A DNA stretch of 64,000 nucleotides from Leptospirales bacterium (GTDB lineage: Bacteria; Spirochaetota; Leptospiria; Leptospirales; Leptospiraceae), in assembly GCA_013297885.1 (NCBI GenBank), contig JAAFIR010000001.1, positions 186,001 to 250,000 on the forward strand, written 5' to 3'. Numbering within the stretch: position 1 is the stretch's first letter; every line of letters starts with the position of its first letter. Below are positions 9,236 to 63,242 of this stretch, one piece after another. Below the pieces are notes generated by a model that did not search any database, had not been told where the DNA came from, and saw only the letters and a program-made list of their open reading frames with translations. Position numbers and translations under genes: made by a program.

Positions 9236-9366
9236 GGGCGTTCCTTTTAATTAATGAAGAATTAAGAATTACTAATATAGGAATTAATTTGTAATTCTTC
9301 ATTAATTAAAAGTCGTGCTTTCCGCTACTTCCGCTAAAGCGGAAACGCTACAATCACTAACGCTAG
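9236..9366 (-). repeat. Modular palindromic element, copy 1
   Basis: Read on the minus strand: linker AGTGAT, stem 1 built on GCGTTTCC/GGAAGTAGC, linker AGCACG, then a long second stem (TTTTAATTAATGAAGAATTA and its complement) closed by GGAACGCCC. The two variable linker bases are complementary (GT/AC). See the finding on the element family. Confidence 0.85.
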
Positions 9367-9451
9367 CTCATCTAAATTTGATTTGGGTTGTAAAAATTTT
9401 TATTTAAGAATTTATTCGCATAATCAGAATTAAACGATAAATCCAGTATCC

Positions 9452-9476
9452 AATTTGGCAAACTGTTTGCCAAATT
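9452..9476. repeat. Perfect inverted repeat (12-bp arms)
   Basis: AATTTGGCAAAC, one base, GTTTGCCAAATT. No T-run follows directly, so it is not an obvious terminator. It could be a protein-binding palindrome or another small dispersed repeat. Confidence 0.6.
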
Positions 9477-9684
9477 AGAAAAAATTTTTCTAGATCAAGA
9501 TAATTTCCCTTCAAAATTTCCGAAAAAAAGGTTGATTTTATTTGCTTTTATCATTTCTGAAGAAATCCATACTTCCAAAATTTCCAGAAAAAAAATTACC
9601 CAATTTTTGAAATTTAATCTTAGATTATTTTATTTTAATAAAAATATATTTTTAGTAAACTTTATTAAAATATTAAAAAATTGA

Positions 9685-9704
9685 CTTATTTGTAAACAAA
9701 TAAG
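9685..9704. promoter_or_regulatory. Palindrome upstream of lipoprotein pair, possible operator
   Basis: CTTATTTGT-AA-ACAAATAAG is a perfect 9-bp inverted repeat directly behind a TTGACT hexamer (9681-9686), about 60 bp upstream of the ATG at 9765. Size and placement suit a TetR- or MarR-type operator. No regulator of that class is adjacent. Confidence 0.35.
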
Positions 9705-9764
9705 ACAAAAAAACACTTGAAGCAATATTCTTTAATAAATAATTTTTCATTAAGGAATAAAAGA

Positions 9765-10166
9765 ATGAAATTTAATAAACTATTTAATTTGAAAGAAATA
9801 AAAATGTATTTAATTTTTATTTTCTTATTTGGAATTAATAATTGTTTAACACTCAAAGTAAATAAAGAAAAAGATGAATTACCAATAATCTTAAATAAAA
9901 AATTAAATCAAAGAAAAAATATAAAAAATGTATTTCTCATTAAAGAAAAGTCCTCACAGTTAAGAGCTTGGTCTCATTTTGGAAATCAAATAAAAGATGA
10001 TAATTATTATTCAACTAATATTGATCTTAAAATTATGGAATTAAAAAATCACAAAGAAAATTACTTAATTGTTCATGATATTAAATTTGAAAATTTTTTT
10101 TGGATGTTTATACCTTTATTGTATGGAGAAAAAAATGAAATTGAAATAGAAGTTGAGTTAAAATAA
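9765..10166 (+). CDS. Small lipoprotein, function unknown
   Basis: About 133 residues from the ATG at 9765, preferred over a TTG at 9717 because AAGGA lies about 8 bp before it. The hydrophobic signal ends in IFLFGINNC, a spirochaete-style loose lipobox. The mature part has a short stretch with alternating hydrophobic residues and ends IEIEVELK. It is 1 bp from the next lipoprotein gene, so the two are very likely co-transcribed and perhaps jointly assembled in the envelope. No recognised domain. Confidence 0.7.
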   Translation: MKFNKLFNLKEIKMYLIFIFLFGINNCLTLKVNKEKDELPIILNKKLNQRKNIKNVFLIKEKSSQLRAWSHFGNQIKDDNYYSTNIDLKIMELKNHKENYLIVHDIKFENFFWMFIPLLYGEKNEIEIEVELK

Positions 10167-10167
10167 A

Positions 10168-60552: not shown

Positions 60553-60967
60553 AGTTATTTTTGATACAAATATCTGGATTAGCTATTTAATTGGTAAAAC
60601 TTTATCGAAAATTACTTTTCAGATTTCAAATGGTAATATTAAAATTATTACTACTTCTCAACTTTTAGATGAAATAAAAATTGTAACCAGTCGAGATAAA
60701 TTTAAAAAATATTTCCCAGCAGATTCTGTTAAAGAATTAATTCAACTTTTAGAGATTCTTGTAGAAAAAATAGAAATTAAACCTAAACATTTTCTAAGCA
60801 GAGATCAAAAAGATAATTTTTTACTAGATTTAATTGATTATTCAAAAGCAGATTATCTTATTACTGGAGATAAAGATTTATTAGTACTCTGTTCATTTAA
60901 AACTGCAAAAATAATTACTCCATCAAATTTTGAAATTATATTAAAAACAAAAAACTTTCTTTACTAA
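60533..60967 (+). CDS. PIN-domain toxin (VapC-like, COG1569 group)
   Basis: 144 residues. Acidic residues of the PIN nuclease: IFDTNIWISY (first Asp), Glu in LLDEIKIV, Asp in RDQKDNFLLDL, and ADYLITGDKDLL. Such toxins cleave RNA, often tRNA or rRNA. Gene overlaps its antitoxin by 20 bp. Confidence 0.88.
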   Translation: MIKKSIKVIFDTNIWISYLIGKTLSKITFQISNGNIKIITTSQLLDEIKIVTSRDKFKKYFPADSVKELIQLLEILVEKIEIKPKHFLSRDQKDNFLLDLIDYSKADYLITGDKDLLVLCSFKTAKIITPSNFEIILKTKNFLY

Positions 60968-61012
60968 ATTTTTTTCATAACCATTTTAATTTTATAATCC
61001 AACGGAGATGAT

Positions 61013-61516
61013 ATGTTCAAAAAAATAATTTGTATTTTAGTATTTAGTTCAATGAGCATTTACTCAGAAGAAAAAAAAGTGGTAAAGGGTTCAGAGAAAA
61101 ATTATGATAATGCTTTAGGTATAACATGGCTACTTCTGATGGCCGGAAATAACTTTTATGAATATAATGGACATAAAAAAGCCGAATTCAATGCACTTGA
61201 AAATCAAAGAAATATTTATGCTTTAGGAATTTTAGGTTATAATAACCAAGCTCAAAGTTTTAAGTATGATTACACTCTTTCAGTAATTGGAGTTGCTTGG
61301 ATGCAAAATAATTTAGCAAATGAAAATAATAATTATGCAGATGGAGACAGAATTGGTGGTGGAATTTGGAGTTCATTTGCTTTAATTTGTTATTTATATT
61401 GTGGAACAGGAAAAAAATACAATAACATAAATCCTAAACCTCCAGATTTTTCTTTTTATCCAATTTTAAATTTATCACCTCAGGCAGGACAAGTTGGAAT
61501 TGGATTTAGATTTTAA
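61013..61516 (+). CDS. Exported small protein, possibly outer membrane
   Basis: 167 residues. Signal peptide MFKKIICILVFSSMSIYS. Aromatic- and Gly/Asn-rich; ends AGQVGIGFRF with a terminal Phe, as in many outer-membrane barrels. One hydrophobic pair of Cys lies in ALICYLYCGTG. GGAG precedes the ATG. No family recognised. Confidence 0.65.
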   Translation: MFKKIICILVFSSMSIYSEEKKVVKGSEKNYDNALGITWLLLMAGNNFYEYNGHKKAEFNALENQRNIYALGILGYNNQAQSFKYDYTLSVIGVAWMQNNLANENNNYADGDRIGGGIWSSFALICYLYCGTGKKYNNINPKPPDFSFYPILNLSPQAGQVGIGFRF

Positions 61517-61989
61517 GGTGGATGAAAGAATATTTATCATTAAAAATAAATTTTTATTCAACTAGAGTCCCCATCTCTTTGCATCACGCTTCACTATGCA
61601 AAGCCCCTCCTCGCTCACGCAAGGATAGGATTGAAGCGTTTCCTAAGACAGTGGCTTGCAACCAATTTCAGGCAAAAACTTGCCGAGCTTGCCATTTGCC
61701 GCTGGAAGCGAAAAGCTAACTGGCATCTGCGAAGCAGTTAATTCTGTCTTAGGAAGTAGCGAAAAGCCCGACCTTTTTTTATTCGCTGAAAAATAAAAAT
61801 GAAATATTTAAAATTAAATTTTATTTTTTTTAGAAATTTTTCATTTTTAATTTTATATTTTTAATTAAAAAAAAGGAACTCCCATCTCGATTAGAAAGGG
61901 TAAAAATAAAAAAAAATTGAGTTTATAAAATAGGTAATTTTCTAATATTTTGAACTTTACAAATTTTAATTCAATAAGATAAAGAGAAT
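61517..61989. other. Intergenic region with palindromic element
   Basis: About 470 bp. It contains the short hairpin CTTTGCAT..ATGCAAAG (about 61577-61602) and modular element copy 9 (61622-61886). The 65-codon open frame in it is the element itself. Confidence 0.75.
61622..61886 (+). repeat. Modular palindromic element, copy 9 (long)
   Basis: ATAGGAT, TGAAGCGTTTCCTAAGACAG, an inserted inner segment with several short hairpins, CTGTCTTAGGAAGTAGCG, AAAAGCCCGACC, then an A/T-rich second stem ending AAAAGGAACTCCCATC. One of the two variable linker pairs is mismatched here. From about 61764 on it is almost identical to copy 10. Confidence 0.82.
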
Positions 61990-62991
61990 ATGCAAGAAAC
62001 TGATTTAATTCCTCTTTGGGATAAAGATTTTAATAAAGAATCAATGAATATACCTTGGGTTGAATCACCTTTTTTTAATGATATACTTATTGAAAAAAAA
62101 TTAACTAAAACAGAAGTTTCAATAGCAAAAGAATACAATGAAAATGGATACATTATATTAGAAAATTTGAATATTTCTGATGAAATTTTAACTGGGATCA
62201 AAACTGACTGTTCACCCTTGCTTGGATTTAATCCAACAACAAAAAAATTTAGGGATACAAGAATACAAGATGCATTTAAAATTTCTAAGAATGTTAAAGC
62301 TTTAGCTTGTCTTGAACAAATTTTAAATATATTAGAATTATTATATGGGAGAAAACCAATTCCTTTTCAAACTTTAAATTTTCCAATGGCGACTGAACAA
62401 GGAGCTCATTCAGATTGTATCCATTTTAGTAGTCTTCCAAAAAATTATATGTGTGGTGTTTGGATTGCATTAGAAGATATTACACTTGAAAACGGACCAG
62501 TATTTTATTTTCCTAAATCTCATAAATTAGCTGAATATTCTTTAACTGATATTTCAAACATTCAAGATGGATGGAATTACCAAAATTATGAAAATTTTAT
62601 TATAAATTTAATGAAATCTAAAAATTTAACACCAAAGTTTTTAACTCTAAAAAAAGGTTCAGCACTAATATGGAGTGCAAATTTGGTTCATGGCGGTTCA
62701 CTTCAAAAAAATAAACAACTAACAAGATGGTCACAAGTTACACATTATTTTTTTGAAGATTGTATTTATTACACACCTTTAAATTCACTAGTTCCATTTG
62801 GACAATATTTTGTTAGAAACAATTTATCAAATATTATTAATGGAGAAAAAATCAAATTAAACTATAATAAATATGATATAAAATTAAATAAAGGTTTCTC
62901 GGGTATGAGTACTATTTTTTTAAAAAATCAAATTCAGAATATTATAAAAAGAACTTGGTTAAGGGTTAAATACAAAATTAATTCCATTTAA
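61990..62991 (+). CDS. Phytanoyl-CoA dioxygenase (PhyH) family protein
   Basis: 333 residues, soluble. Fe(II)/2-oxoglutarate-dependent fold: metal ligands His and Asp in GAHSDCIHFSS and the second His in LVHGGS; the 2OG-binding Arg is likely in TRWSQVTHYFF. GVWIALEDITLENGPVFYFPKSHKL is the typical core. Substrate unknown. It is flanked on both sides by palindromic elements in direct orientation. Confidence 0.88.
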   Translation: MQETDLIPLWDKDFNKESMNIPWVESPFFNDILIEKKLTKTEVSIAKEYNENGYIILENLNISDEILTGIKTDCSPLLGFNPTTKKFRDTRIQDAFKISKNVKALACLEQILNILELLYGRKPIPFQTLNFPMATEQGAHSDCIHFSSLPKNYMCGVWIALEDITLENGPVFYFPKSHKLAEYSLTDISNIQDGWNYQNYENFIINLMKSKNLTPKFLTLKKGSALIWSANLVHGGSLQKNKQLTRWSQVTHYFFEDCIYYTPLNSLVPFGQYFVRNNLSNIINGEKIKLNYNKYDIKLNKGFSGMSTIFLKNQIQNIIKRTWLRVKYKINSI

Positions 62992-63063
62992 ATTTAATCT
63001 AGATTATTAAAAAATGATTTTGACTTTTTATTTAAATAAAAAAAATTTACAAATTTGTTATGA

Positions 63064-63242
63064 GTTAGGGATTGAAACGGCGTAAAAAAATTTCAAGTGA
63101 AATTTTTTTACGGGAGTTGAAAGCCCGACCTTTTTTTTATTCACAGAAAAATAAAAATGAAATATTTAAAATTAAATTTTATTTTTTTAGAAATTTTTAA
63201 TTTTTAATTTTACATTTTAATTAAAAAAAAGGAACTCCCATC
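63064..63242 (+). repeat. Modular palindromic element, copy 10
   Basis: TTAGGGATTGAAACGG, perfect 14-bp stem CGTAAAAAAATTTC/GAAATTTTTTTACG, GGAGTTGAAAGCCCGACC, then an A/T-rich second stem ending AAAAGGAACTCCCATC. The 63121-63242 part is nearly identical to 61764-61886. Confidence 0.85.

Follow-up and report, generated by a model that had tools for sequence, protein, structure and literature searches.

The question raised by this DNA from a Leptospirales bacterium is what kind of element can change the sequence of its stems from copy to copy and still keep them paired. The window (the whole stretch analysed, 64,000 nucleotides, G000:C28:186001-250000; 28% GC; genome of 4.6 Mb in 72 contigs) carries ten intergenic palindromic copies, all of which lie where the original prediction had placed them or a few bases away. 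Judging from Rfam matches, these elements are relatives of Flavo-1 (RF01705), and this family takes the place of REP (repetitive extragenic palindromic) elements moved by RAYT transposases and of attC sites, which had been named as the nearest known ideas. We propose, with a probability of roughly 0.55, that full-length Flavo-1 elements are REP-like mobile DNA repeats read as folded single-stranded DNA. The family is known, its structure is confirmed, and the reading is new.

The complete element forms a three-way junction of an outer helix (P0), a first stem (P1) with an A.G mismatch and a second stem (P2), followed by an unpaired 3′ foot, CC-AAA. The 5′ part consists, in order, of five P0 bases, a spacer A and the first linker; the 3′ part runs from the second linker through a G and the hairpin P2, which varies, to P0′, the five-base complement of P0. 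P1 of the Flavo-type copies contains purine-rich internal loops. The ten copies are listed below with their matches to RF01705, to R1 (a covariance model built from 37 aligned short elements) and with the z score of DNA folding where it was tried.

9238..9363, minus strand: three-way-junction element, P0 GCGTT/AACGC, linker GT/AC; RF01705 30.1 bits; R1 E 2.9e-5; z -7.8
16328..16415, minus strand: three-way-junction element, P0 GCGAT/ATCGC, linker GG/CC; R1 E 0.0014; z -3.8
16459..16614, plus strand: three-way-junction element above the Rfam cut-off, P0 GGGTT/AACGC (4/5), linker GG/CC; RF01705 53.8 bits; R1 E 3.7e-7
21520..21708, minus strand: three-way-junction element with a long P2, P0 GAGTT/AACTC, linker AG/CT; missed by R1 and RF01705
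28402..28490, plus strand: three-way-junction element, P0 GCGAT/ATCGC, linker GT/AC; z -5.1; missed by R1 and RF01705
35855..35949, plus strand: three-way-junction element, P0 GGGAA/TTCCC, linker GT/AC; R1 53 bits (training row); z -3.9; not among the RF01705 matches
48661..48801, minus strand: three-way-junction element, P0 GCGAT/ATCGC, linker GA/TC; z -8.9; missed by R1 and RF01705
54774..54946, plus strand: three-way-junction element, P0 GCGAA/TTCGC, linker AC/GT; R1 E 6e-4
61621..61881, plus strand: damaged or chimeric copy that keeps P1, P2 and the 3′ arm AACTC but lacks the left GAGTT partner; linker AG against CC; missed by R1 and RF01705
63062..63237, plus strand: three-way-junction element, P0 GAGTT/AACTC, linker GG/CC; RF01705 25.5 bits; R1 E 3e-4; repeat family D8

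As predicted, the linkers are complementary in nine of the ten copies, the exception being 61621..61881. The pairing of the outer ends had been understated: P0 pairs at 5/5 positions in eight copies (GCGAT/ATCGC three times, GAGTT/AACTC twice, and GCGTT/AACGC, GGGAA/TTCCC and GCGAA/TTCGC once each) and at 4/5 in 16459..16614. A 4/5 P0 match listed for 61621..61881 sits elsewhere and was taken as chance. In 16328..16415, the P0 arms occupy 16411-16415 and 16328-16332, GAT lies at 16405-16407 and AGC at 16352-16354. The P0′ end of 21520..21708 is 7 nucleotides (nt) from a plus-strand open reading frame (ORF) that ends at 21512. The view that the stems are modules is supported: the copies 63062..63237 and 61621..61881 have a common P2 (82% over 93 nt) and different P1. 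Stem 1, which falls into a few families (TTGAAGCG-, CGAA-, [AT]CAAAATG- and AAAAAAAG-types), does not vary freely in all copies. In unconstrained DNA folding, the minimum-energy structure was the three-way junction with the A.G mismatch in five of the five window copies tried (z -3.8 to -8.9), which supports the proposed plan; the centroid structure of 9238..9363 deviates in P1.

Covariation was then measured in 864 kb (the window and 40 further 20-kb pieces). With P0 5/5 required and the linker ignored, detection gave 30 candidates, 29 with Watson-Crick linkers and one with a single G.T wobble. With a looser detector based on the core words GAT/AGC, 29 candidates had P0 5/5 and the linker was complete in 24, whereas the decoy words GTT/AAC, GAA/TGC and CAT/AGG gave 1, 1 and 0 complete matches. 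When the P0 criterion was dropped, GAT-hairpin-AGC gave 29 matches with 17 complete linkers; the 12 misses are unlike the family by eye. A stricter detector found 86 copies against 0, 0 and 0 in three first-order Markov shuffles.

Pairing was also analyzed in copies chosen by other means. Flavo-type copies of the host genome (n = 57) were picked by P1 sequence words and the spacer A only, with pairing unused, and loci of other organisms and viruses (n = 99) were fetched by the P1 pattern. Against 1000 shuffles, which do not remove relatedness between copies, both linker pairs were Watson-Crick in 54/57 host copies (permutation mean 16, maximum 27) and 90/99 other loci (mean 42, maximum 53). 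The P0 complement followed by C occurred within the next 230 nt in 51/57 host copies (mean 11, maximum 21), and P0 was paired in 84/99 other loci (mean 22, maximum 31); a foreign P0 meets a partner in just 4-5% of trials. Among exact pattern matches in genome and viral contigs, both linker pairs, with G.T allowed, were present in 118/142, and many of the 24 non-pairing matches read as chance. The alignment of 37 short elements has 12 pairs in P0, the linker and lower P1. Of their cells, 99.8% hold a standard pair; changes on both sides number 58 (14 in shuffles) and affect six of the pairs, and slid structures reduce standard pairs to 32-53%. Since the rows were preselected for pairing, only the variety in this alignment is informative, not the percentage. 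R1, the kind of model that the original prediction had suggested, recovered six of the ten window copies at E ≤ 0.0014, one of them a training row; the 800 kb outside the window yielded 82 places at E ≤ 0.1, two of them training rows. These results confirm that the covariation is real, persists outside the ten copies and extends to the outer helix, beyond what had been claimed, and they support selection on the folded structure.

When the window was compared with all of Rfam at E ≤ 1, RF01705 was the only family matched. One of the ten copies passes its gathering cut-off of 42 bits (16455-16556, 53.8 bits) and two match below it (9307-9368, 30.1 bits; 63059-63134, 25.5 bits); the remaining seven are absent from the RF01705 matches at this threshold in the window. 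In the Rfam structure, pairing is confined to the linker pairs and to P1, which carries the A.G mismatch and two symmetric internal loops; the flanks are unpaired. The host genome gave 96 matches at E ≤ 10, at least 71 of them above the cut-off (best 150 of 2029 candidates). The comparison set includes four genomes of the host genus. At E ≤ 3e-7, RF01705 occurs 68 times in the host genome, twice in G027, another member of the family, and not in the remaining 28 genomes from the order (best 109 candidates per genome). R1 at E ≤ 0.01 (best 150 candidates per genome) gave at least 147 places in the host genome, five in each of three genus relatives, two in G027 and one in G028; ten further genomes had none. 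The descriptor search of 371.5 kb from relatives yielded two copies with new arms, and R1 added one other; thus, the relatives carry few copies. Among the matches listed, copy-rich genomes are seen in Bacteroidota and among Treponema or Spirochaetia metagenome genomes; of 17 genomes, 15 have from 14 to at least 150 Flavo-1 matches (best 150 candidates each).

Two features of the unit bear on how its pairing is maintained. The A.G mismatch, described in the original prediction as constant, is retained: because its repaired Watson-Crick version GTT/AAC is almost absent (1 complete match against 24 for GAT/AGC), the mismatch itself is kept. The ends were analyzed in 120 host and 71 other copies, 10 of the latter viral. 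Position -1 before P0 was G in 0/191 copies, and position +1 after P0′ was C in 95% of host and 94% of other copies, followed by C (84 and 85%) and three As (65-80%). Since -1 is never G although C follows P0′, the P0 helix is never extended. The sharp ends therefore mark a unit with a defined 3′ foot, which may represent the joined end. The 5′ flank is conserved in the host genome only, where a stretch like AAATTTTT..CAATACTA precedes P0; this stretch does not occur in other loci.

These features were weighed against the idea that the palindromes are perfected by template switching during replication or by gene conversion, a process that needs neither a dedicated enzyme nor recognition of the fold. 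Such a process would account for stem tips that differ yet are near perfect, for the homogenised copies described below and for G.T mismatches about as frequent as A.C in the host genome. However, correction should erase the A.G mismatch, which persists, the P0 arms covary despite two stems between them, G is never found at -1, and the CC-AAA foot is conserved across phyla. We consider this explanation unlikely.

Flavo-1 itself has been treated as RNA. It was first reported in 2010 as a probable RNA whose function was not given, and a table graded it probable RNA (excerpts of PMC2864571); Rfam types RF01705 as gene/sRNA (small RNA). In Flavobacterium psychrophilum, some Flavo-1 matches fall on 5′ transcribed regions, whereas matches are both sense and antisense and many lie beyond transcribed regions (excerpts of PMC9723704). 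A mobile-DNA proposal for Flavo-1 was not found in the excerpts of PMC2864571, PMC9723704 and PMC9029176, where it continues to be listed as such an RNA, and a literature search with the sequence words of the element gave nothing relevant by title. If covariation were selected in a transcript, as for an sRNA or a leader, the helix should accept G.U far above A.C, and the host copies do not clearly favour it: their stem mismatches (plain P1 and P2) were 44 G.T and 34 A.C. A small control, nine tRNAs from the host genome and relatives, gave 14 G.T and 0 A.C (host copies versus tRNA, Fisher p 0.0016). In other taxa, the counts were 22 G.T and 13 A.C. Among 72 copies in 864 kb, one lies inside an ORF of at least 100 codons. 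Of 67 copies with both neighbours, those in gaps between tandem genes were on the strand of the genes in 16 cases and on the opposite strand in 17; thus, the element strand is indifferent to genes. The presence/absence and homogenisation of Flavobacterium copies, shown next, also resemble mobile DNA. Overall, the evidence leans to DNA over regulatory RNA, and a structured RNA is, in our judgement, decidedly unlikely.

The mobility data come from Flavobacterium copies above the RF01705 cut-off, in which P0 (AGC/GCT or CAGC/GCTG) is shorter than in the window. At one intergenic site, displayed for G031 and ten genomes chosen from an alignment pattern, the element is present in eight and missing in three (L512, L513 and L514) of the 11 genomes; where both anchors were found, filled sites measured 132-157 nt and empty sites 59-60 nt. 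The element-free L514 carries AACGCCCAAA, which resembles a bare 3′ foot. At two further sites (B and C), the element is missing in some genomes, and these are not clean empty sites. In L523 and L524, a different, GAGACGCGATTAATCGCGTCTC-like palindrome occupies a region of a Flavobacterium site that holds Flavo-1 in sister species. Two G031 copies, 6.4 kb from each other and with differing flanks, are identical over a stretch of 112 nt whose limits are exactly P0′ and 14 nt before P0. The copies at the same two sites in two other genomes are 95.1 and 95.0% alike within each. Flavobacterium copies are 95-99% alike within a genome against 74-85% for orthologues between genomes. Since likeness within a genome exceeds that of orthologues, dispersed copies are homogenised as units and the stem tips change coordinately.

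This behaviour may extend to the window copies. In alignments between host-genome copies (at least 80% identity), 106 pairs span P0 and P1 and stop in P2, and 47 more add the 5′ flank; 12 cover P2 only, and all three modules are covered in seven without and eight with the flank. Empty sites were not obtained in the host genus, where relatives are too diverged or non-syntenic at the elements. A search of the 864 kb for a gene within a split element gave no convincing case; two distant word pairs (4.9 and 5.8 kb) look like chance.

Several observations weigh against the proposal of a mobile DNA fold. The clean mobility evidence concerns the shorter-P0 subtype of Flavobacterium, not the five-base subtype of the window; at the one clean empty site no target duplication is seen, and the difference there may be a gain or a precise loss. 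P2 of other taxa taken alone leans to G.T (20 versus 10, p 0.10), as a structured RNA would. No strand bias relative to GC skew was found (17 versus 19 copies, in pieces with clear skew). No mobilising enzyme was identified among the candidates tried (Y1/PF01797, RAYT-like genes, the Y1 of the host genome and DUF1564). Finally, 20/67 copies lie between convergent genes against about 10 expected from intergenic length (16% of intergenic bases), and an antisense stop codon lies no more than 45 nt from the 3′ foot in 27/37 host and 14/33 other cases. This convergent excess and the closeness of the foot to stops could reflect function instead of targeting.

One such function would be in termination or mRNA stabilisation, with selection for elements near stop codons. 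The asymmetry agrees with it, since the 5′ foot is within the same distance of an antisense stop in 12/37 host and 7/26 other cases; 14/67 copies lie between divergent genes against about 20 expected. Phages point the same way. Among the neighbour genes of 121 loci, no protein cluster occurs in more than nine, and the largest is a phage protein of about 530 residues, which matched nothing in PHROG or Pfam and may, by eye, be a terminase. On viral contigs, the element lies antisense just after its gene in 10/40 loci examined (of 42 found), nine by motif and L405 by eye:

Phage loci with the element after this conserved gene: L282, L290, L385, L386, L389, L391, L405, L406, L409 and L423

This share is biased upward, since seven of the ten loci were located via the element itself. 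The position after this gene may reflect targeting, tolerance or function. P0 varies across these phages yet pairs in those written out. In L385 and L386, stem 1 is larger by roughly 200 nt. Against a 3′-end function, the gene would read the complement, turning A.G into T.C; the element is patchy among related phages; and the closest gene 3′ of the element starts rather than ends there in 33/70 host copies. This is the least probable of the explanations considered here.

The original prediction had also pointed to RAYT transposases. According to excerpts of PMC6006769, REP elements carry a 5′ GT[AG]G foot at the hairpin, and Bacteroidetes RAYT subclass 2.6 is associated with atypical structures without GTAG. 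In the 191 copies analyzed for their ends, no such foot is present: the upstream letters are not GTAG and -1 is never G. The PF01797 (Y1) profile was searched in 36 genomes and was missing in 5/16 genomes with at least 14 Flavo-1 copies (G030, G032, G033, G036 and G044, 14-140 copies); the profile may have missed a gene, or the gene may have been lost later. High-copy intergenic palindromes, the lack of GTAG in subclass 2.6 and two cases of closeness speak for a Y1 transposase: the one Y1 gene of the host genome has a Flavo-1 element about 560 bp away, and the RAYT-like gene L378 has one about 180 nt away. However, the host Y1 protein was matched in 6/33 genomes including its own, mostly weakly, and Flavo-1 occurs at 3/20 Y1 loci by Rfam and at a fourth (L365) by eye. 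Nine RAYT-like genes (L373-L376, L378, L379, L381, L383 and L384) are flanked, by eye, by other palindromes, which may be those of subclass 2.6; apart from L378, Flavo-1 is not adjacent to them. Subclass 2.6 was therefore rejected as the mobiliser on these flanks and on the missing PF01797, and the RAYT part of the original prediction is not supported. Movement of REP/RAYT or IS200-type elements by a Y1 transposase, an explanation that is already weak, is very unlikely.

DUF1564 (PF07600) has 22 matches in the host genome and 38 and 49 in two relatives. It was rejected as the mobiliser: the copy-poor or copy-free family members G001, G002, G003, G026 and G028 have 12-49 matches, and seven copy-rich genomes tested outside the order have none. 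Its genes lie at 21808-22317 (minus strand) in the window, at 2741-3304 of L033 and at several contig ends. They belong to a repeated unit, which joins the gene to degenerate AT-rich repeats and ATAGTTATGCA motifs and often has a three-way-junction element at its right end; several contigs start or stop at this unit. No literature pairing DUF1564 with Leptospira was found. Elsewhere in the window, related small genes (repeat families D1-D7) are arrayed in tandem at 48879-52248.

The mobile DNA fold is favoured because the architecture, the foot, the mismatch, the indifference to gene strand, the balance of G.T and A.C, the presence/absence and the homogenisation agree with it in combination. 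In the proposed mechanism, the top strand of the short non-coding repeat would fold into the three-way junction with its unpaired CC-AAA foot. Shape, A.G mismatch and foot would mark this folded single strand for a putative enzyme or a replication-linked process, which would copy the element or exchange it between intergenic sites. Sequence changes would be tolerated as long as the pairs are kept, so that the arms could drift in compensating pairs and be swapped as modules. More tentatively, and short of even odds, Flavo-1 might be a mobile DNA class that crosses phyla and is not RNA, its three-way junction being moved by a single-stranded-DNA-processing enzyme that is neither RAYT nor IS200.

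The elements share with RF01705 the P1 with internal loops, the GAT/AGC core and the Bacteroidota host range. Whereas Rfam describes stem 1 and the linker pairs as RNA, the present description extends the unit by P0, P2, the spacer A and the CC-AAA foot. Like REP/RAYT systems (REPtrons), they are short, high-copy intergenic palindromes with a conserved unpaired foot; unlike them, they form a three-way junction with 3′ CC-AAA instead of 5′ GTAG, and no RAYT partner was found. Sites of integron attC type are folded single-stranded DNA and tolerate sequence change. Recognition of structure in single-stranded DNA, as in attC and IS200/IS605 ends, may be common to the present elements, but no cargo gene was seen here and no Y1 transposase tracks the copies, unlike in IS200/IS605. 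If the reading is correct, a mobile DNA fold would explain the copy number and scatter of Flavo-1, and annotations in many Bacteroidota genomes would be corrected. The defined structure and foot would then provide a system for finding a new enzyme able to read DNA folded as a single strand.

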